DNA of 50,074 nucleotides from an uncultured Pelagibacteraceae bacterium. Its GTDB lineage: Bacteria; Pseudomonadota; Alphaproteobacteria; Pelagibacterales; Pelagibacteraceae. Made by a program: the position numbers and the translations under genes. Shown here piece after piece: positions 1-38,240 of the stretch. The notes under the pieces are model-generated. The model did not search any database. It was given only the letters and a program-made list of their open reading frames with translations, and was not told where the DNA came from. Each line of letters opens with the position of its first letter. The stretch's first letter is position 1. The DNA lies in assembly GCA_902572775.1 (NCBI GenBank), contig CACGHF010000003.1:1-50074 (forward strand). The letters are read 5' to 3'.

Positions 1-47
1 TTAGACAAAAAAAATTAATATTCAAGGTCTAAATAAAAAAAGGATAT

Positions 48-121
48 GCCTTGGTGGTGAAATAGTATCACGTCGGTTTGTGGATCCGAAGTCATAGGAG
101 CGTAACCTATCCAAGGTACCA
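48..121 (+). tRNA. tRNA-His-like element (anticodon GTG, encoded CCA, A73) abutting hisS; divergent tRNA-His or tRNA mimic
   Basis: Cloverleaf by eye: acceptor GCCTTGG(48-54)/CCAAGGT(111-117), D stem GTGA/TCAC, anticodon stem TCGGT/TCCGA (one T-T mismatch) with loop TTGTGGA, T stem ATAGG/CCTAT, A118 + CCA119-121. D loop AATAGTA lacks GG; T loop AGCGTAA lacks TTC. Confidence 0.75.
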
Positions 122-125
122 AAAA

Positions 126-1520
126 ATGAAACAAGAAAAAAAATTAGTTCCTGGATTACCCTCAGGATTTGAAGATCGTTGGGATAAAAAACTTCTTCTC
201 AAAAAAAAGCTTTTAAAAGCTATTGAGAATAATTTTATTAAATTTGGAGCTGAGGCTTTAGAAACCCCTTCGTTTGAGATAAGTTCAAATATAGGATCTT
301 TTTTGGCAGAAGATGATGCTAATCCTATGTCTGATGTATTCTCGTTTCAGGATGGAGAAAAAAGCATTACTCTTAGGTATGATCTTTCAAGCCCACTAGC
401 TAGATTTGTTGCACAAAATAATCAAGAGCTTCCATCAATCTTTAAAAGGTATGCTATTCAAAATGTCTTTAGAAATGAAAAGGCTGGTAATGGAAGATAC
501 AGAGAATTTATGCAAGCGGATTTTGATATCGTGGGAAATGTTAATCCTGCGCAAGCAAATGCGGAGCTTTGCAATTTAATATCAAGTACTTTGTTAGATT
601 GTGGTCTAAAAAAAGATCAATTTACAATCAACATTAGTAACAGAAAAATAGCTCAAGGATTAATTGACGATTTAAAAATATCAGAAGAAAAGCAAGCAAA
701 AGTAATTAGGGCAATTGATAAATTAGATAAACCAGGTTTTGGTTTAAAAGGTGTTGAAGATCTGCTTAAAAAAGAAAGAAAAGATATAAGTGGTGCAATC
801 ACTAAGGGTGCAGATTTAAACGATGAACAAGCGTCTGAAATACTTAATTTTCTAAAAATTAAAGATTTAAAAGAATTAAAAGAAACATTAAAAAATCCAT
901 TGTCTCAAGAAGGTATAAAGGAATTAGAACAAGTATTTGAAGTATTGGGTTACAGTTCAAATTTAAATCAGGTCAAAACAAATTTTACAATTGTTAGGGG
1001 ATTGGCTTATTATTCAGATTTCATTGTTGAAACAAATCTAAATTTTAAAGTTACAAACAACAAAGGTAAAGAGGTTGATATAGGCAGCATTTGTTCTGGA
1101 GGAGCCTATGCAAAATTAATCTCGAGATTTAAAGGTGTGGATATTCCAGGTACTGGAATTAGTTTTGGAGTTGATCGATTGTTATTTGCTTTGATGCAAT
1201 TAGATCAAATAAAAGTAGATAGTCAAAAACCAGTTTTAGTTTGTGTTATGGATGAAAAATATATTAAAAATTACTATGAAATTTTAGATCTATTAAGAAA
1301 TAATAATATCAATGCTGAAATTTTTTTAGATACAAAGAAAAATTTAGGCAAACAACTAACCTTAGCAAATAAACGTGAGTTGGATGTTGCAATAATATGT
1401 GGTGAAAATGAATTTAATGAAAATACAGTCACTATAAAAAGTCTCAAAGGTGTTAAGGGTGAAAACAATAAAACATTTCCAAAAGAAAATTTAATCGATG
1501 AAGTCAAAAAACTTATCTGA
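126..1520 (+). CDS. hisS: Histidyl-tRNA synthetase
   Basis: Class II aaRS motifs (TLRYDLSSPLARFVAQN, FRNEKAGNGRYREFMQADFDIVG, SICSGGAYAKLI, GTGISFGVDRLLFAL). ATG at 126 preferred; the N-terminus from 78 lies in the tRNA-like element. Confidence 0.95.
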   Translation: MKQEKKLVPGLPSGFEDRWDKKLLLKKKLLKAIENNFIKFGAEALETPSFEISSNIGSFLAEDDANPMSDVFSFQDGEKSITLRYDLSSPLARFVAQNNQELPSIFKRYAIQNVFRNEKAGNGRYREFMQADFDIVGNVNPAQANAELCNLISSTLLDCGLKKDQFTINISNRKIAQGLIDDLKISEEKQAKVIRAIDKLDKPGFGLKGVEDLLKKERKDISGAITKGADLNDEQASEILNFLKIKDLKELKETLKNPLSQEGIKELEQVFEVLGYSSNLNQVKTNFTIVRGLAYYSDFIVETNLNFKVTNNKGKEVDIGSICSGGAYAKLISRFKGVDIPGTGISFGVDRLLFALMQLDQIKVDSQKPVLVCVMDEKYIKNYYEILDLLRNNNINAEIFLDTKKNLGKQLTLANKRELDVAIICGENEFNENTVTIKSLKGVKGENNKTFPKENLIDEVKKLI

Positions 1521-2544
1521 AAACATCCTTAGATCAGTAAAATCTAAGGGTTTTAAATATATTGATTTACCTTCAGTAATTGAAGCTGATCATATTGTGC
1601 AAAGATCAGGTGAAAACTTTAGAAAATTTATATTCGCATTTATTGATCAAAACGGTAGCGAGCTTTGTTTAAGGCCTGATTTAACCATCGTTTCTTGTCT
1701 TAGATATTTAGAAAATAACTTGAGAGGAAAGGAGAAGATTTTTTATAGTGGTCAAGCATATCGAAAATCGCAAAACAAAAAAAATTCTATTATTAGAAAC
1801 CAAGTTGGATTTGAAATCTTAGGGTCAAAAGATGAAAAAAATGATGATAAAGAAATAATTAATACATCTTTAAAAGCTTTAAAAAATTTAAAATATACTT
1901 CAGGTACATTAACAATCGGTAATGTTGAGATTTTTAGATTATTGATTTCAAAATTAGAAATCCCTTCTCGATGGAGATTAAGATTATTAAGACATTTTTG
2001 GCGAGATGAATATTTCAATGACTTATTAAGTCGATTAGAGACAAATGCAGATATTGACCCGACAGAAATAGCTGTGGATAAGAAAAGGTATTTAAATTTA
2101 TTAAAGAAAGATCCATCCACAATGATTGCCGGAAGATCTATTGGAGAAATTTTAAAAAGATTTGATACCAAAATGAAAGATCCTAGAAGGGCAAGCAAAG
2201 GTAAGAAAGTTTCAGCAATTATAAGATCATTTTTGAAAATTAAATGTCCAATCAATAATGCTGCAAAAGAATTAAATAAATTTTTTAAAAAAAATAAAAT
2301 TAATCTTGTTGTAGATCAAAAATATTTTCCAATTTCTTCAAATAAAGTGTCAAAATTAAATGTGATGTTTTCAACATCTTTTGGACGCCAGCTTGAATAC
2401 TATTCAGGGATGGTATTTAAAATTGATATCAAATCTAATTCTAAAATTATTAATTGTTGTGCTGGTGGTCGTTATGATGGATTAATTTCTGATCTCGGTT
2501 CTAAAAAACAAGTTCCAGCAGTTGGGGCTGCATTTAATTTATGA
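1498..2544 (+). CDS. hisZ: ATP phosphoribosyltransferase regulatory subunit
   Basis: HisRS-like paralog (LCLRPDLTIVSCLRYL, GRQLEYYSGMVF, CCAGGRYDGLISDLG) between hisS and hisG. Confidence 0.9.
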   Translation: MKSKNLSENILRSVKSKGFKYIDLPSVIEADHIVQRSGENFRKFIFAFIDQNGSELCLRPDLTIVSCLRYLENNLRGKEKIFYSGQAYRKSQNKKNSIIRNQVGFEILGSKDEKNDDKEIINTSLKALKNLKYTSGTLTIGNVEIFRLLISKLEIPSRWRLRLLRHFWRDEYFNDLLSRLETNADIDPTEIAVDKKRYLNLLKKDPSTMIAGRSIGEILKRFDTKMKDPRRASKGKKVSAIIRSFLKIKCPINNAAKELNKFFKKNKINLVVDQKYFPISSNKVSKLNVMFSTSFGRQLEYYSGMVFKIDIKSNSKIINCCAGGRYDGLISDLGSKKQVPAVGAAFNL

Positions 2545-3233
2545 AAGACCTAATTAAAATTGGAATTCCAAGTAAAGGTAGACTTCGAAAAGATGTGTTA
2601 AACATTTTTAAAAAAAATAAATTAAAATTAATCTCAAGTAGAGGAGATCGTGATCTAATTGGATCTATTAAAGGAAAGCAAAATATTGAAATTATTTATT
2701 TACACGCACGTGAAATAATAGAGCAACTAGCAGGCAAATCACTCGACCTAGGTTTTTCAGGATTAGATTTGTTAAAAGAAAGTGAAATTAATATTCAAAA
2801 TAACATTAAAATTTTTAAAAAATATCCTTATGGGCAAGCAACACTTGTTGTGGCTATCCCAACAGATTTTATAGATATATTCAGCATGGCAGACCTTGAA
2901 GAAGTAGCCTTTGAGTTTAAAGATAAAAAGAAAAAGCGATTAAGAGTTGCAACTAAATATCCAAATTTAACACGTGAATTTTTTTATAGCAAAGGAGTTA
3001 CTCAGTTTTCTATTGTTAAATCAATTGGCAGTACTGAGATAGCACCATATACAGGCAGTTCTGAGGTTATAACAGATATTACTAGTACAGGTTCAACCCT
3101 TGCAGCTAATAATTTGAGAATTATTAATGATGGATATATTTTAAAATCTGAACTTTGTATGATGGTTGCAAAATCATCTCTTCAGAATAAAAAATTGCAA
3201 AAATTAGCTAAATTACTTTCGACCAAATATTAA
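2541..3233 (+). CDS. hisG: ATP phosphoribosyltransferase catalytic subunit, short form
   Basis: IGIPSKGRLRKDV, LDLGFSGLDLL, RVATKYPNLTREFF, TGSSEVITDITSTGSTLAANNL. Confidence 0.95.
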   Translation: MKDLIKIGIPSKGRLRKDVLNIFKKNKLKLISSRGDRDLIGSIKGKQNIEIIYLHAREIIEQLAGKSLDLGFSGLDLLKESEINIQNNIKIFKKYPYGQATLVVAIPTDFIDIFSMADLEEVAFEFKDKKKKRLRVATKYPNLTREFFYSKGVTQFSIVKSIGSTEIAPYTGSSEVITDITSTGSTLAANNLRIINDGYILKSELCMMVAKSSLQNKKLQKLAKLLSTKY

Positions 3234-3916: not shown

Positions 3917-4753
3917 TTATTTTTTCCAACCATAATCAGTTACAAAATAATTTTTATTTAAATACTCATAAATATTTTCATAAAGTATTTTAATTATAAT
4001 TTTTGTTAGAATATCTTCATCAGTTCTTAACTCTAACATTCTTGGTAGTTTTTCTCTTGAATTTACTTTTTGAACAGCGCTTTGACGTATGGTGTTTTGA
4101 TCCTCAGAGTATTTATTAAAAATTTTTTCTTCATTTTTTTTTATAAAACTTAATAGATAATTTTTTTTAACAACTTTTATTTTTCTTAGTGCCTGAAATT
4201 CAAATTGTCTTACTCTTTCTCTAGTAACATCTAAAGCTGTACCTATTTCTTGTAGTGTTTTATTTTTCCAGAAACGGTCGTGTAATATTGAATATTCTTT
4301 ATCATTCAATAAATCTTTAATTTCACCTAATAAAGACTCAGTATCTACTTGTAATTCATCAATTTCTTTTTCTTTTAAAATTTTAATTTTTTCTTCTAAG
4401 TTTTCAGGAGGCCAATTTTCAATATATGTGTTAAAATTAAGTTTATAAAAATCTAATAATTCTCTTAGCTCTGTTAATGATTTTACTCCAAAATTTTGAG
4501 ATTTAAGTAAGTATTGCTCCGATAATTGAATTAAATCACCAATATTTTTAACATTTTCATTTTTAAGACAATTAAAAGTTCTAACGCTGAGATTTAGAGA
4601 TTCTATTGGTTTTATTAAGACTTCTAAATTTTCATTAAGATAACTTTCGACAGAGCTATTTTTTTTTATATTTTTGTATTTTTCTAATTCTTTTCGTAAA
4701 TATTCATTTTCATTTTTTAATTTTTCGATTTTATAATCTTTATCGTTGTTCAT
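3917..4753 (-). CDS. Chimera: coiled coil + RNA polymerase alpha-CTD + sigma-70 region 4-like HTH
   Basis: LIKPIESLNLSVRTFNCLKNENVKNIGDLIQLSEQYLLKSQNFGVKSLTELRELL...ENWPPENL matches RpoA CTD; EYSILHDRFWKNKTLQEIGTALDVTRERVRQFEFQALRKIK matches sigma region 4. Confidence 0.85.
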   Translation of the reverse strand: MNNDKDYKIEKLKNENEYLRKELEKYKNIKKNSSVESYLNENLEVLIKPIESLNLSVRTFNCLKNENVKNIGDLIQLSEQYLLKSQNFGVKSLTELRELLDFYKLNFNTYIENWPPENLEEKIKILKEKEIDELQVDTESLLGEIKDLLNDKEYSILHDRFWKNKTLQEIGTALDVTRERVRQFEFQALRKIKVVKKNYLLSFIKKNEEKIFNKYSEDQNTIRQSAVQKVNSREKLPRMLELRTDEDILTKIIIKILYENIYEYLNKNYFVTDYGWKK

Positions 4754-4756
4754 TGG

Positions 4757-6856
4757 TTATTTAGATTTTTTAATACTTACAACGTTATCTTCTGTTTCAA
4801 AGTATAATTGATCATGAATATATTTTGGCCCAAGATTTGCTAGTTTTTCCAATGTTTCATCTCTATTAATTCGCTTTATTAACCATCTTTTTAACCACGC
4901 TGATGTAATGTTTTCTGCTTTTGAGGATGTGATATTGGAAAAATTCTTTTTTTGATCAATAATTTTTTTCAAAATATTTTTCTCATGAAAAAAAATATAG
5001 TTTTTTCTTTGCATAGAATGTGCAAAAAAAGTATCAAGCTGAATATTTGATTTAGAATTATCAAGCAAGCAATCTATTCCAACTCTTGCTTTTCTTAGTT
5101 TTGGAGAAGTTCCCTCACCAAATTTATGATTTACCTCAACATATTTAAGTTTTTTAAGAGTTAAAATACCAAGTAATTTTGAGGTCTCATTACTAAAATG
5201 GTAAACACCTTGGCCTTTAGTTTTTTGTGATTGTTTGTTTTTTTTTGCTTCACTCCAAATCACATCTGTTTCAAGTTCCGGATAATCTTTTTTTAAAAAT
5301 TTTATTTTATTATACTGTGAAGATGCAACTCCATACAGACTTGTAGTTGTTAAGCACATTAAATTAGCATCTCTGTAAACAGCTTTACCTTTACTGCTAG
5401 ATGCAATTATTGAGGGGAACTTATATTTTTTTCCATTATATCTAGACTTGAACAAGGTTCTAACCTCAGTACTTCCCATCAGAGCAGCTATAAGTTTTCC
5501 TCCTATCAATTCATTATAAGGAGCTACAGCACCACATACACCAAGATCCATTATATTTTCAGCGAGGGCTTTAGTTTTTATTTCTCTTAAGGCAGCTGAA
5601 ATTAGTTCATTACCTTTTTTATTAGATGGGTGAATCAGGGTAGCATATCCTCTTGCTGGATCTTTCTGGATTTTAACCTCATTAAAAGCTTTTCTTATTT
5701 CTAAAAATTTTGAAAGTTTGATCGCTCTCTTTTTTTTAAAAACTGCTTCTTCCGACTCTTTCATCCAATCTTCAGGCTCAAAACTAGAAATTTTTGGTGG
5801 TTTTTTCTTTTCATTTTTTAAGTCACTTTTACGTCTGTTAAACTCGTCTTCATAAATTTGTTTAAGTTTTTTAATTACATCTTCGTTAGGCTCTTTAACT
5901 AATTTAGAATTTAAAAAATCAAAATCATCACTTCTAATATTATCGATTTGTTCATTTAAACAATCGACCATAGCTTTTACTAAAAAATCTATTTCAATTT
6001 CTTTTGAATAAATTTTCTTTCTTATAGTTGCTTCATCCGTCCATCCAATAGCATCTTCTCTTGCTTCATCTGCAAGAGCAGCACTTCTGAGCATAGCAAT
6101 TCCCATAATTGGTTTATTAGGCCTTGCAGCATTTCTAATTAAAATTGGAAAACTTTTTCCAGGAACAGATTTATATTCATTAGACCATGTAAGCCTGAAA
6201 TATTTCCATATATCTCCTAATCTAAGGCCAGTATATGGACAATTATTTTGCTCCTCTCTAAATAGTGGATCTTCAGGATAACAAATAACTATTTCAGGAT
6301 TAATGATTTTTTTAAGTAGTGAGATTTTTTTTTCCTCATCTAGTTGAGAAATGTCCTTAAAAATTTCAGCTAGTTCTTTACCATTATCAATTAGATCTAA
6401 TATTGATTTTTCCTCATTCCCAATTTTCCTAGGTTTCTCCATTCGTTGAATAAATCTTTGTATTTCAACACTTTTCATGTGCTTGTCCCTATTAATTTTT
6501 TGGACACGCCTCATTTTTTCTTTAGTTTCTTCTAAATTATTCCCAGTAAAGGCAGTTGAATAATCTGGCTTTGAAATTAAAAACCCTTCAAGACCTAAGC
6601 CTACATGCCAACCACCAGCAAGTAGATCAGCTAATAAAGAGCAACACGCTTGAAAAGAAATATTCTCTTTATTAAATTTCATGAAAAACGACTCATGTTC
6701 ATCTAAAGATATTTTATTAAAAATAGTAATCTGACTCTCAAGATCTTTGATTAAATCTTGAGAGTTATTATTATCTACGAATATCTTTCTTATTAACCTT
6801 AAACTGTGAGGGCTTAAGTTTGGAACAAAAGTGCTATACTTTTCTGTTTTCACCAC
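4757..6856 (-). CDS. DUF4338/Druantia DruA-like protein, 699 aa
   Basis: LGVCGAVAPYNELIGGKLIAALMGSTEVRTLFKSRYNG, LTTTSLYGVASSQYNKIKF, FGEGTSPKLRKARVGI resemble the long DUF4338 family from memory. GTG start overlaps the upstream TAG stop. Confidence 0.65.
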   Translation of the reverse strand: MVKTEKYSTFVPNLSPHSLRLIRKIFVDNNNSQDLIKDLESQITIFNKISLDEHESFFMKFNKENISFQACCSLLADLLAGGWHVGLGLEGFLISKPDYSTAFTGNNLEETKEKMRRVQKINRDKHMKSVEIQRFIQRMEKPRKIGNEEKSILDLIDNGKELAEIFKDISQLDEEKKISLLKKIINPEIVICYPEDPLFREEQNNCPYTGLRLGDIWKYFRLTWSNEYKSVPGKSFPILIRNAARPNKPIMGIAMLRSAALADEAREDAIGWTDEATIRKKIYSKEIEIDFLVKAMVDCLNEQIDNIRSDDFDFLNSKLVKEPNEDVIKKLKQIYEDEFNRRKSDLKNEKKKPPKISSFEPEDWMKESEEAVFKKKRAIKLSKFLEIRKAFNEVKIQKDPARGYATLIHPSNKKGNELISAALREIKTKALAENIMDLGVCGAVAPYNELIGGKLIAALMGSTEVRTLFKSRYNGKKYKFPSIIASSSKGKAVYRDANLMCLTTTSLYGVASSQYNKIKFLKKDYPELETDVIWSEAKKNKQSQKTKGQGVYHFSNETSKLLGILTLKKLKYVEVNHKFGEGTSPKLRKARVGIDCLLDNSKSNIQLDTFFAHSMQRKNYIFFHEKNILKKIIDQKKNFSNITSSKAENITSAWLKRWLIKRINRDETLEKLANLGPKYIHDQLYFETEDNVVSIKKSK

Positions 6857-8734
6857 TAATTTACTTTAGCATCACTACCTGGATCTGGTAATTCATCATC
6901 CATATTATCGATTGGATCTGGATCATCTTTTCTAGCTTCAGCTCTCTGTCTTGCAACAGTTTTTAAATGATCTCCCAAATCATTCATAAAATTATTTATA
7001 AAGTCTTGGTGATCTTCGGTATGTTTATAAAATAATTGAGCAAACATTAATAAAAAAGTTTCCCACCCTTGTCTAGAATCATTATTTGATCCAGGACCCA
7101 TATAAAAGTTTTTATAAAAACTGTGATCCATATTGATAATTACCTCTACAGTATCACCATGTTCATCAAATTTTATAAAATCATTATGTTTACCTAGCTT
7201 ATCCTCACTAAATTTAGTAGGTCTATCTTTATAAATATCCTCATAATCTTTAGCTGCTTGTTCAACTGATATATTTTTCTTTTCAGAAATTTCTTTTATC
7301 TTAGCATTTTTTCTAGCATCAGCTTTTTCCTTACGTTCTTGATAATCGGGAGTTGCTTTGGTTGTTCCCATCAACAAATTTGCAGTTTCTGCATCAATTT
7401 CAGACTCTCTCTTTTGAGTTTCATCTTCTTTGGGTCCTTCTTGTAATTTAGCTTTAAGAACACCTCCTTCTTCACCAAAATCTTTTTCTATTTGATTAAG
7501 ATGTCTAAATATTCCAGTTGCATCTAATGTTTCTAAAAATCTTTCATTTGGAATTATTTGTTGTTTAGAAGTGTTAACAGCGAAATGTTCATCTAATACT
7601 GGTGGAAAATTAATTTCACACTTCCAATATCTACTGTTATTTCCAACACTTATCCTGCCACCAAAGTTTTTTACTACATCCATACGTCTTCCTAACCTTC
7701 TAAAGACTATTCCATGGTTTTTTTGTGAAACTCTCCATCGCTGACTCTTTTTATCTGGTCCTCGTGTAATTTTTCCCTTTATGTAAGCCTTTTCAACATC
7801 TGGTTCATCTGACTCATTTCTTACAAAAAATAATGCAGGTAATCTTGACCATCTTATTTGAATTTCATGAGTATTACCCTCTTCATCTTTTATTTCAGAG
7901 GTCATTTCATGATAGTGATCGTCAGAAACTTTTAAATTATTCATAGAAGAATCTTCATATCCAAGCATACCAGGAGTAGCAAAACATGGATCAACAGGCT
8001 TCACCTCTTGATTATCTACAAACATTTTTGTTGTATTTAATAATTTAAAATAAGTTTGACCAAAGTCATCCATTAAGTTGTGTTTTAATGTGTTAATGCT
8101 AGTGGGTGAAATTTTATCTAATTCTTCGTAATGAATAATTGTTCCACTTTCTAACTTTTCAGCAACTAAGTTTTTTCCTTCAAATGATTTAATAAATTTT
8201 GGTAAATCGCATTTTTCAGGAACTGATCTAATATCATCTAAACTTGGTTTATCTGTTGTTTCAAGTTGGGTAATATCAAATATAATTTTGTGCCAATCAC
8301 CACCTTTAACTTTAGAGTAGATAGTATATTTTTTTGCTATACTAAGAGAGGCTGATGGTAAACCATATCCATATTTACCAAAACCTTTTCTAGAACCTTG
8401 TCTATGAGTTCCACCCCATGTAACAGCAACTGAAAGCATATCTTTCACCATTCCATGACCATCATCATATATAACCAATTCGTCAATTTTATTACTTGTG
8501 CCAATTAGTTCATAATGAATATTTCTTGCACCTGCTTGAAACGAGTTATCATTAATTTCATTTAAAGCGTATGCAGTATCTTTATAACCAAGATCTCTAA
8601 TACCTTTTAAGAAAGCTTCAACAAGTACAACACCTTGAATTCCACTTGCACCACCTTGTTTGATGAAATCCAATTGTTCTTTTAATTCTGGATTTTCGAT
8701 AAATTCTTTTTGTAATTCTAATTCTGTTTTCATA
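6856..8734 (-). CDS. GHKL (HSP90/histidine-kinase-like) ATPase
   Basis: N box ALNEINDNSFQAGA, G1 box YDDGHGM, GFGKYGYGLPSASLSIAKK. ATG at 8734 has AAAGGA upstream and is preferred to 8766, which lies in a hairpin. Confidence 0.8.
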
Positions 8735-8750
8735 ATTTTCCTTTGTTGTG

Positions 8751-8772
8751 GAGGGTGGAATTCCACCCTCCG
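8751..8772 (-). promoter_or_regulatory. GC-rich perfect palindrome/intercistronic hairpin
   Basis: GGAGGGTGGAATTCCACCCTCC, between the sigma-like gene stop (8781) and the GHKL start (8734). Confidence 0.7.
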
Positions 8773-8780
8773 TTAGTTTA

Positions 8781-9407
8781 TTAGTTTAATGTTAAACTTC
8801 CAGCGTAATATCCTTTTAAGTACATTTTCGCCTTAGAGTTGATTGAGTCTTTTAGTCTGAAAGATGTTCTTGTTGAAACACCCAATTCATTAGCAACTGT
8901 TTCAGCTGAAGCTTCATCATGAATGAACATTTTCCAAGCCTTTTTTTCCAAACCTCGAAGAGATTTAACAAAAGCTTTTCCTACTTTTTTTATATCATGA
9001 CAAAAACCTGTGTCTTCATCATGTTTCGTTCCAAACAAATTAGAGTTTGAACGAAGACCTAAAGTAGAAACTTCTTTTAGTCTCTTTTTGGTTTCAGCAT
9101 ATCTAATTTCTTTAGTTCTAATTGAACTATAGAAATTTCTTAAATGATTATAAAGATATGCCAAGATTGCATCTTTAGATTTAGCTCTACTAGGATCAAA
9201 ATAATCTAATATGCTATCAGCCCACACTTTAGTAAAAAAGTCTTGTGCTAATTCATCAGTTTGATCAGTTGAACGTTTAAAACCTGCCTTATGGTCAAGT
9301 TTTCTTATGCAAGCTTTAATTTTAGATAGATGTGATAAATACACATCGCTAAAATTTAGCGCTGTACTTGCTACATTTTTTACGCTTTGGTCTGCATGAT
9401 TGCTCAT
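8781..9407 (-). CDS. ECF-sigma-like protein
   Basis: Region 2-like TDELAQDFFTKVWADSILDYFDPSRAKSKDAILAYLYNHLRNFYSSIRTKEIR; C-terminal HTH ASAETVANELGVSTRTSFRLKDSI. SD AGAAAGG. Confidence 0.6.
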   Translation of the reverse strand: MSNHADQSVKNVASTALNFSDVYLSHLSKIKACIRKLDHKAGFKRSTDQTDELAQDFFTKVWADSILDYFDPSRAKSKDAILAYLYNHLRNFYSSIRTKEIRYAETKKRLKEVSTLGLRSNSNLFGTKHDEDTGFCHDIKKVGKAFVKSLRGLEKKAWKMFIHDEASAETVANELGVSTRTSFRLKDSINSKAKMYLKGYYAGSLTLN

Positions 9408-9408
9408 G

Positions 9409-9504
9409 TGTTCCCTTTCTACGTTGTGGGAACATCTAGAAGAAATTCTGAGTCAAAAAATACTCGAATAAGTGGACCACAATAGGATCCGTCGAGATAT
9501 TCCC
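9409..9504 (-). promoter_or_regulatory. Structured 5' leader with mutually exclusive helices (switch candidate)
   Basis: Minus RNA: GGGAAUAUCU(9504-9495)/AGAUGUUCCC(9437-9428), 10 bp incl. one G-U; alternative UGUUCCC(9434-9428)/GGGAACA(9415-9409), 7 bp, covering part of the SD. Confidence 0.5.
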
Positions 9505-9589
9505 GATTAAATTATGATCAAATTACATTAAAATGACCAAAAAAGCCAGTAAAATCTGTTATTTTAAATTTACTAACCTCTCACATATC

Positions 9590-9619
9590 TATGTTAATTT
9601 TTGCTAAATCACTGCCAAA
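9590..9619 (-). promoter_or_regulatory. Promoter-like motif TTTGGCA-N17-AACATA
   Basis: Minus strand: TTTGGCA GTGATTTAGCAAAAATT AACATAGAT, upstream of the sigma-like gene leader. Confidence 0.5.
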
Positions 9620-10164
9620 TTTTTTCGATTTATCAGAAAAAACTTTGCCTTAGACAAATATTTATTAAATTTTTGCTTTTTTTTTTCAAATATCAAATAA
9701 ATTAAGATAACTGGTTTTCTACTTTTAATTGAGTAATTAATACATTGTCTAACATGTTTATTTAAACTTTCCTTAATATTTTTTTCCGAAACCTTTAATT
9801 CAATACAGCAATCTTTATAGTTTTTACCATCAACTTCAACTTTGTTAGCATTAAAGTCAGGGTAAACGTGTCTGAACTTTTTAAATTTATAGGAAGTTAT
9901 ATCCTTTAATTTTTTAACTTTTAAAAATGTAAAAGCTTTAATGCCTGTTCTAACCAAAGAATTTATAGGTAAAGCATTATTCTTTACAATTGTCGTGGGT
10001 AAATTTTTTGTTCTTAAATAATAGATATCATTTGCATAGTTTTGAGCTGCTGGAATTGAAAATTGATCTCTATGAAAGGCATAAGAAAATCTAATTGCTT
10101 CCTCAACAGCTTTCCCTCTTATCATAGCAGCTAAATTATTTTTTTTTTTTAAAGAAGTAATCAT
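9604..10164 (-). CDS. Putative PD-(D/E)XK-type nuclease-like protein
   Basis: YPDFNANKVEVDGKNYKDCCIELKVSEKN compatible with a PD...ExK core; weak family assignment. Confidence 0.4.
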   Translation of the reverse strand: MITSLKKKNNLAAMIRGKAVEEAIRFSYAFHRDQFSIPAAQNYANDIYYLRTKNLPTTIVKNNALPINSLVRTGIKAFTFLKVKKLKDITSYKFKKFRHVYPDFNANKVEVDGKNYKDCCIELKVSEKNIKESLNKHVRQCINYSIKSRKPVILIYLIFEKKKQKFNKYLSKAKFFLINRKNLAVI

Positions 10165-10453: not shown

Positions 10454-10538
10454 GCTCAAATGGCGGAACAGTTAGACGCGACAAGTGATACTTGTTTCAC
10501 TACGGTGAGTACCAGTGCAAATCTGGTTTTGAGTACCA
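10454..10538 (+). tRNA. Class-II (long variable arm) tRNA-like element with CCA; atypical anticodon arm
   Basis: Acceptor GCTCAAA/TTTGAGT, Leu-like D arm GCGGAACAGTTAGACGC, arm GACAA-GTGATAC-TTGTT, variable arm TCAC-TACG-GTGA, T arm ACCAG-TGCAAAT-CTGGT, A + CCA. Confidence 0.6.
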
Positions 10539-37984: not shown

Positions 37985-38130
37985 TCGTACCCCATCTGTA
38001 TTTTTGCCTGAGAGTTTTACTCCTTCGGCGGAAATCAATCTCTTTCCAGAGTGTTATGCTTTAATCGGTCCTTTTGCCTGAGAGTTTCCGGGGTGGTTGC
38101 TCCTTCGGCGCTATAAATAGTCTCTCCCGA
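37985..38130 (-). promoter_or_regulatory. Tandem glycine riboswitch upstream of glcB
   Basis: Two aptamer cores on minus strand, each with CGCCGAAGGAG and CTCTCAGGCAAAA. Confidence 0.93.
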
Positions 38131-38240
38131 TAATGAATTTGTATCTGTTAAATGATTTAAGTCAATTAATAAGAATTACACCTTATTTAATATCATTTTA
38201 TTGCCTTTTTTGTATTTTAACCATCCGCTATAAATAAAAC

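Follow-up and report, generated by a model that had tools for sequence, protein, structure and literature searches.

A tRNA-His(GUG) gene with a rewired elbow lies directly before hisS in an uncultured Pelagibacteraceae bacterium. It very probably encodes the working tRNA-His of the cell, in which the usual contacts between the D and T loops appear to be replaced by an alternative, compensated set. The gene was found near one end of a stretch of 50,074 nucleotides (assembly GCA_902572775.1, contig CACGHF010000003.1, positions 1 to 50,074), referred to here as the window. Comparison of hisS with its relatives assigns the window to the Pelagibacteraceae, within SAR11.

Results

Structure of the tRNA-His gene

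The four helices, the GTG anticodon, the A73 discriminator and the encoded CCA of the original prediction were all recovered on direct reading (Table 1), with two corrections: the anticodon stem has four of five pairs, with a constant U31-U39 mismatch, and pair 1-72 is G-U. The CCA end at 121, the hisS ATG at 126 and the position of the SD-like AAGG (113-116) inside the acceptor stem were likewise as predicted.

Table 1. Features of the tRNA-His gene and the hisS operon, in window coordinates
Feature	Position	Strand	Basis
Approximate exchanged tract	37-170	+	L092-like inside, like canonical-tRNA relatives after it; alignment and identity bins
tRNA-His(GUG) gene, encoded CCA, G1-U72, A73, no G-1	48-121	+	RF00005, 50.2 bits; compensatory changes in relatives
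Acceptor stem, GCCTTGG / CCAAGGT	48-54 / 111-117	+	Direct reading
D stem, GTGA / TCAC	57-60 / 68-71	+	Direct reading
D loop, AATAGTA (A18 = 64, G19 = 65)	61-67	+	Sprinzl positions by analogy; D/T-loop covariation in phage tRNAs
Anticodon stem, TCGGT / TCCGA	73-77 / 85-89	+	Direct reading
Anticodon loop, TTGTGGA (GTG = 80-82)	78-84	+	Loop YTGTGGA constant in all alleles
Variable loop, AGTC	90-93	+	Direct reading
T stem, ATAGG / CCTAT	94-98 / 106-110	+	Direct reading
T loop, AGCGTAA (A54 = 99, G55 = 100, C56 = 101, G57 = 102, U58 = 103)	99-105	+	Direct reading, Rfam, covariation
Discriminator A73; CCA	118; 119-121	+	Direct reading
AAAA spacer, CCA to hisS start	122-125	+	Direct reading; spacing compared across loci
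hisS, histidine--tRNA ligase, derived motif-2 loop EKAGNGRYREF	126-1520	+	TIGR00442, 338 bits; PF13393
hisZ, ATP phosphoribosyltransferase regulatory subunit	1498-2544	+	NF008953, above cut-off
hisG, ATP phosphoribosyltransferase	2541-3233	+	TIGR00070

Evidence for a working tRNA-His

The minimum free energy fold of the single strand (z -1.06) differs from the cloverleaf, and support for the tRNA is therefore comparative rather than thermodynamic. The match to Rfam RF00005 (cut-off 29 bits) had an E value of 1.4e-9, and of 2.7e-10 in a genome-wide search; its score was low compared with the other tRNAs of the same genome, and ARAGORN missed the tRNA-His. When seven distinct sequences of the window type were compared, double-sided changes were found at four stem pairs (3-70, 6-67, 7-66 and 49-65) and no new mismatch occurred, the constant U31-U39 being the sole break. 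No compensated pair was obtained in a control in which the partners were slid by one to three columns. Thus covariation among relatives, which the original prediction had proposed as a check, supports the cloverleaf. The absence of GG and TTC from the loops and the low score beside other tRNAs could also indicate a decaying tRNA that has simply lost its elbow, as in some mitochondrial tRNAs; this is very unlikely, given that the loops remained constant among the window-type relatives while their stems changed in a compensated way, and that hundreds of other tRNAs show covariation at positions 18/55, 54/58 and 19/56 (see below).

G1-U72, A73 and the loop YTGTGGA were common to all tRNA-His alleles examined. 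Histidine identity in Caulobacter is set by A73, U72 and the anticodon, and G-1 is missing there as well (PMC9976931); SAR11 tRNA-His was already known to carry A73 and to lack G-1 (PMC3937112). The window tRNA-His is of this A73, G-1-lacking alphaproteobacterial kind, as had been anticipated, and all the identity elements for alphaproteobacterial HisRS (A73, U72 and the anticodon) are present in it.

A search of the genome for another tRNA-His(GTG), also proposed at the outset, found none in the window's own assembly, which is 64.7% complete. In G011, a Pelagibacter genome that is 99% complete and in one contig, 32 complete tRNAs were found, exactly one of them a tRNA-His; it is of the window type and is located 4 nt before hisS. 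An assembly chimera was ruled out, as the same type recurs before hisS in approximately 20 other genomes.

Two readings had been offered originally: an aberrant tRNA-His at the head of hisS-hisZ-hisG, or a tRNA-like operator that HisRS binds to repress its own operon. In Escherichia coli, the thrS operator is a tRNA-like fold just before the synthetase gene. The element in the window resembles it in preceding a synthetase gene and has the shape of tRNA-His, but differs in being a full tRNA gene, CCA included, and the sole representative of its isotype. A mimic would need a separate true tRNA-His, and the window type is the only tRNA-His of G011; moreover, it has the full histidine identity in addition to CCA, and such elbows were seen in tRNAs of many isotypes encoded far from synthetase genes. 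The operator is therefore exceedingly improbable. The first reading held insofar as an unusual tRNA-His does lie directly before the operon, though not in its premise that both partners of the D/T-loop contact are missing, for they are replaced together. Since a matching set of substitute bases is present, the gene looks like that of a real, working tRNA-His(GUG) with a different internal lock, and not like a decoy or a decayed gene. HisRS would charge this tRNA and ribosomes would use it.

The elbow is rewired and compensated

The window tRNA-His has A18, A54, G55 and U58 and retains G19 and C56, which places it outside the canonical elbow (G18, U54, U55 and A58). Relative to that elbow, G18·U55 is switched to A18·G55 and U54·A58 to A54·U58, and G19-C56 is kept. 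Hence the reported lack of GG in the D loop and of TTC in the T loop was correct, but the reported loss of contact was not: the outer elbow contact is not lost, because G19 (65) and C56 (101) are both present, and the 18/55 counts in viral tRNAs indicate that the two other partners were replaced by a covarying pair.

These counts were obtained with a loop-blind tRNA finder, which ignores the loop letters except for A14/A21 and U33-type anchors. Run on 218 viral loci (2.0 Mb), it recovered 1,292 distinct tRNAs, and it gave zero hits on shuffled sequence from 177 of the loci. The loci had been chosen for containing at least one AGCGTAA tRNA, so that the share of each class does not represent phages in general; among their tRNAs, U55 was found with GG in 951 and with AG in 12, and G55 with GG in 4 and with AG in 254 (Fisher, 9e-242). 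With the AGCGTAA class removed, the corresponding table was 951/12/3/158 (Fisher, 1e-173), and with one tRNA per 65% cluster it was 334/6/2/107. Positions 54/58 also covaried (U-A 1004; A-U 181, compared to 30 expected; G-G 46, compared to 1.8), as did 19/56 among the U55 tRNAs (G-C 948, A-U 32, U-A 9). The A18/G55 tRNAs comprised 138 clusters and 28 anticodons, and pairs of viral tRNAs at least 80% alike outside the loops can bear opposite elbows. The elbow of the window is the common version among them, with A18/G55, A54/U58 and G19-C56.

Judged by this covariation, the elbow of the tRNA-His is rewired and compensated, not simply lost. We infer that A18-G55 and A54-U58 touch in three dimensions: A18 would dock in the T loop and contact G55, A54 would contact U58 where the canonical elbow has the U54-A58 reverse-Hoogsteen pair, and G19-C56 would cap the elbow. 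A double helix between the D and T loops (U17-A59, A18-U58), considered for AATAGTA/AGCGTAA, was set aside because A18/G55 occurs also with U54-A58 and G54-G58, combinations for which a helix of this sort offers no explanation.

Distribution of the elbow in SAR11 and in phages

Both loops of tRNA-Val(GAC) in the same genome are identical to those of tRNA-His (AATAGTA and AGCGTAA). Within the family, 94 of 297 genomes matched the two-loop pattern, chiefly in tRNA-Val(GAC) and in some also in tRNA-His; none of the 338 good genomes of other Pseudomonadota (among 399) did. The pattern was found in at least 120 stretches of viral contigs, where it sits in complete cloverleaf tRNAs of numerous isotypes. 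A scan by T loop only recovered D loops that mostly have TAG where GG is expected. On short excerpts, ARAGORN missed 54 of 86 viral elbow tRNAs. An elbow of the A18/G55 type is also present in an annotated tRNA-Met of the cultured Acinetobacter phage Ac42.

Within SAR11, the elbow was recorded in tRNA-His, -Phe, -Val(GAC) and -Thr(GGU). Three tRNAs of G011 bear it, those for His and Val(GAC) and the single tRNA-Phe detected (AGGAGTA/TGCGAAT), and the tRNA-Thr(GGU) with a rewired elbow belongs to a sister SAR11 family. The tRNA-His of genus g9 has the ancestral body and only the switch (AGTTAGTTA/TGCAACT), which is an independent double change; given this in-place switch, a phage origin need not be assumed in every case.

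Loss of Psi55 and T54 modification enzymes

TruB was absent from five 99%-complete Pelagibacter genomes (G011, G025, G034, G071 and G082) and from the window's own genome, with 14 of 14 controls positive. No TrmA-type enzyme was found in the same genomes (12 of 14 controls positive), and TrmFO gave only a partial match, within a frame of 624-626 aa that was taken for MnmG. As TruB was readily detected in SAR11 genera g5, g9 and g12 and in family f88, its absence from Pelagibacter is unlikely to be a failure of detection. Because genes for all three enzymes are absent, Pelagibacter tRNAs are probably without Psi55 and T54, and U54 and U55 may then be freer to change.

An elbow that arose in place in SAR11 after loss of these enzymes, without involvement of phages, would agree with the missing genes and with the ancestral body of the g9 tRNA-His. 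Such an origin is nonetheless unlikely, though far from negligible: switched tRNAs occur in g9 and family f88 although both have TruB, and the bodies of the Pelagibacter alleles are unrelated to the ancestral tRNA-His and have a variable loop of 4 nt, as is typical of phage G55 tRNAs. For the first of these reasons, loss of TruB was ruled out as the sole cause of the switch and can be at most a helper. That phages avoid elbow-reading enzymes is speculation. Escape from anticodon nucleases (PMC10264068) was rejected as a cause of the elbow; that work concerns the anticodon loop, and a term search of it found no mention of D or T loops.

Replacement of alleles before hisS

At least four unrelated sequence types of tRNA-His occupy the site before hisS in Pelagibacter loci. 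On a hisS tree of 86 rows, these types call for 11 changes or more; for the window type by itself, supported branches force at least four. The hisS of the window shares up to 98% identity with genes adjoining a canonical tRNA, and the window tRNA equals that of locus L092. One viral contig (L382) has a tRNA-His with the same architecture, identity bases and elbow. No donor of the window allele was found by BLAST against 50,697 phage records, which gave only 30-base partial matches. On balance, we favor arrival of the allele by recombination of a tract of approximately 130 bp, with a phage tRNA, or a lineage that had taken one up, as its ultimate source.

At the tRNA-Phe site approximately 680 nt upstream of hisS (loci L018-L097), AGGAGTA/TGCGAAT types were found at 70 loci and canonical ones at 7, and the alleles are unrelated. 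Positions 1-36 of the window have approximately 47-50% identity to the upstream DNA of relatives and are not alignable with it; they contain an inverted repeat (TTAGAC...GTCTAA) where the contig ends and may be an assembly or amplification artefact. A truncated tRNA copy in G011 (L379, G011:C1:838387-838444; 33 bits, model positions 8-63) resembles tRNA-Met and is possibly the scar of an integrated element.

Spacing between the tRNA and hisS

Of 80 Pelagibacter loci, 78 have 4 nt between CCA and the hisS ATG and 2 have 5 nt; the 15 loci from other genera have 4-5 nt. The exception was a divergent congener (L420), with a gap of 29 nt. The spacing is kept across hisS genes that are just 45-50% identical and is the same for canonical and switched tRNA-His, indicating that the spacing is independent of the form of the loops. 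The alleles have no SD-like sequence in common; their acceptor strands read AAGG, CGGG or AGCTG.

The fixed spacing and the lack of a shared SD-like sequence make a putative leaderless or SD-independent initiation of hisS after release of the tRNA plausible, at somewhat short of an even chance. Compatible with a working tRNA-His and added to it, processing after CCA would leave a near-leaderless hisS mRNA (AAAA-AUG) and would couple tRNA maturation to HisRS synthesis; this layer has nearly even prospects, the same spacing and missing SD speaking for it, and the 29-nt gap of L420, together with the possibility that hisS is translated from the unprocessed transcript, against it.

Other features of the window

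A second tRNA-like element (10454-10538, + strand) has G1-U72, A73, CCA, a long variable arm and an anticodon read as GAT. CAG replaces GG in its D loop and its T loop is TGCAAAT, which is again A18/G55. It was detected by ARAGORN only, with no match in Rfam and no phage match of note, and the long variable arm does not fit tRNA-Ile. Between hisG and rmuC, approximately 7 kb (3917-10164) contain a DruA homologue (PADLOC, 465 bits), an MzaB-like ATPase and sigma-like proteins. Because relatives have only approximately 50-400 bases in this interval, it has the appearance of a defence island inserted there, and the second tRNA-like element is near its end. A glycine riboswitch aptamer (65.7 bits) was found at 38056-38139 on the - strand.

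Discussion

The Steinberg group reportedly selected suppressor tRNAs with altered D and T loops, and other loop combinations are said to be able to work. Those tRNAs were laboratory selections, whereas the rewired elbow described here is natural and widespread. In the literature searched, which did not extend to most subscription papers, neither A18/G55 nor a compensated elbow was found described for phages or SAR11.

Among known tRNAs, alphaproteobacterial tRNA-His shares U72, A73, GUG, the lack of an encoded G-1 and a HisRS with a derived motif-2 glycine with the one in the window, but the studies concern the acceptor end, and in their accessible parts a change in the elbow is not described (PMC3937112, PMC9976931). 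Eukaryotic tRNA-Ala and initiator tRNAs with A54-A58 T loops likewise have A54 and an altered 54/58, but retain A58, G18 and U55; A54-A58 pairs are stated as not seen in bacteria (PMC7566577, PMC7912444). Finally, tRNA-Pyl and metazoan mitochondrial tRNAs are also without G18G19 and TPsiC, but have other tertiary contacts or none; in the window tRNA-His, G19-C56 is kept, the rest covaries, and the molecule is a class I cloverleaf of normal proportions (PMC7609411).

In ordinary tRNAs, the contacts 18/55, 54/58 and 19/56 vary so little that covariation can hardly be used to test them. The phage and SAR11 tRNAs make this test possible, and they suggest that an elbow can also be built from other bases. 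The result is relevant to the recognition of tRNAs by RNase P, TruB, the L1 stalk of the ribosome and tRNA-cleaving defences, to tRNA-finding programs by which genes of this kind are overlooked, and to the engineering of orthogonal tRNAs. The alleles before hisS show, in addition, that a tRNA gene present in one copy was exchanged several times over in a bacterial group that ranks among the most abundant in the sea.

Tentatively, and with the odds somewhat against it, the elbow may be viewed as a switchable module: phages would spread rewired, compensated tRNAs, and SAR11 would have repeatedly adopted them as the only copies of essential isotypes, swapping alleles at fixed sites. If this is true, rewired phage tRNAs perhaps need no Psi55 or T54 or slip past elbow-reading enzymes, and some of the adopting SAR11 had lost the Psi55/T54 modification enzymes.
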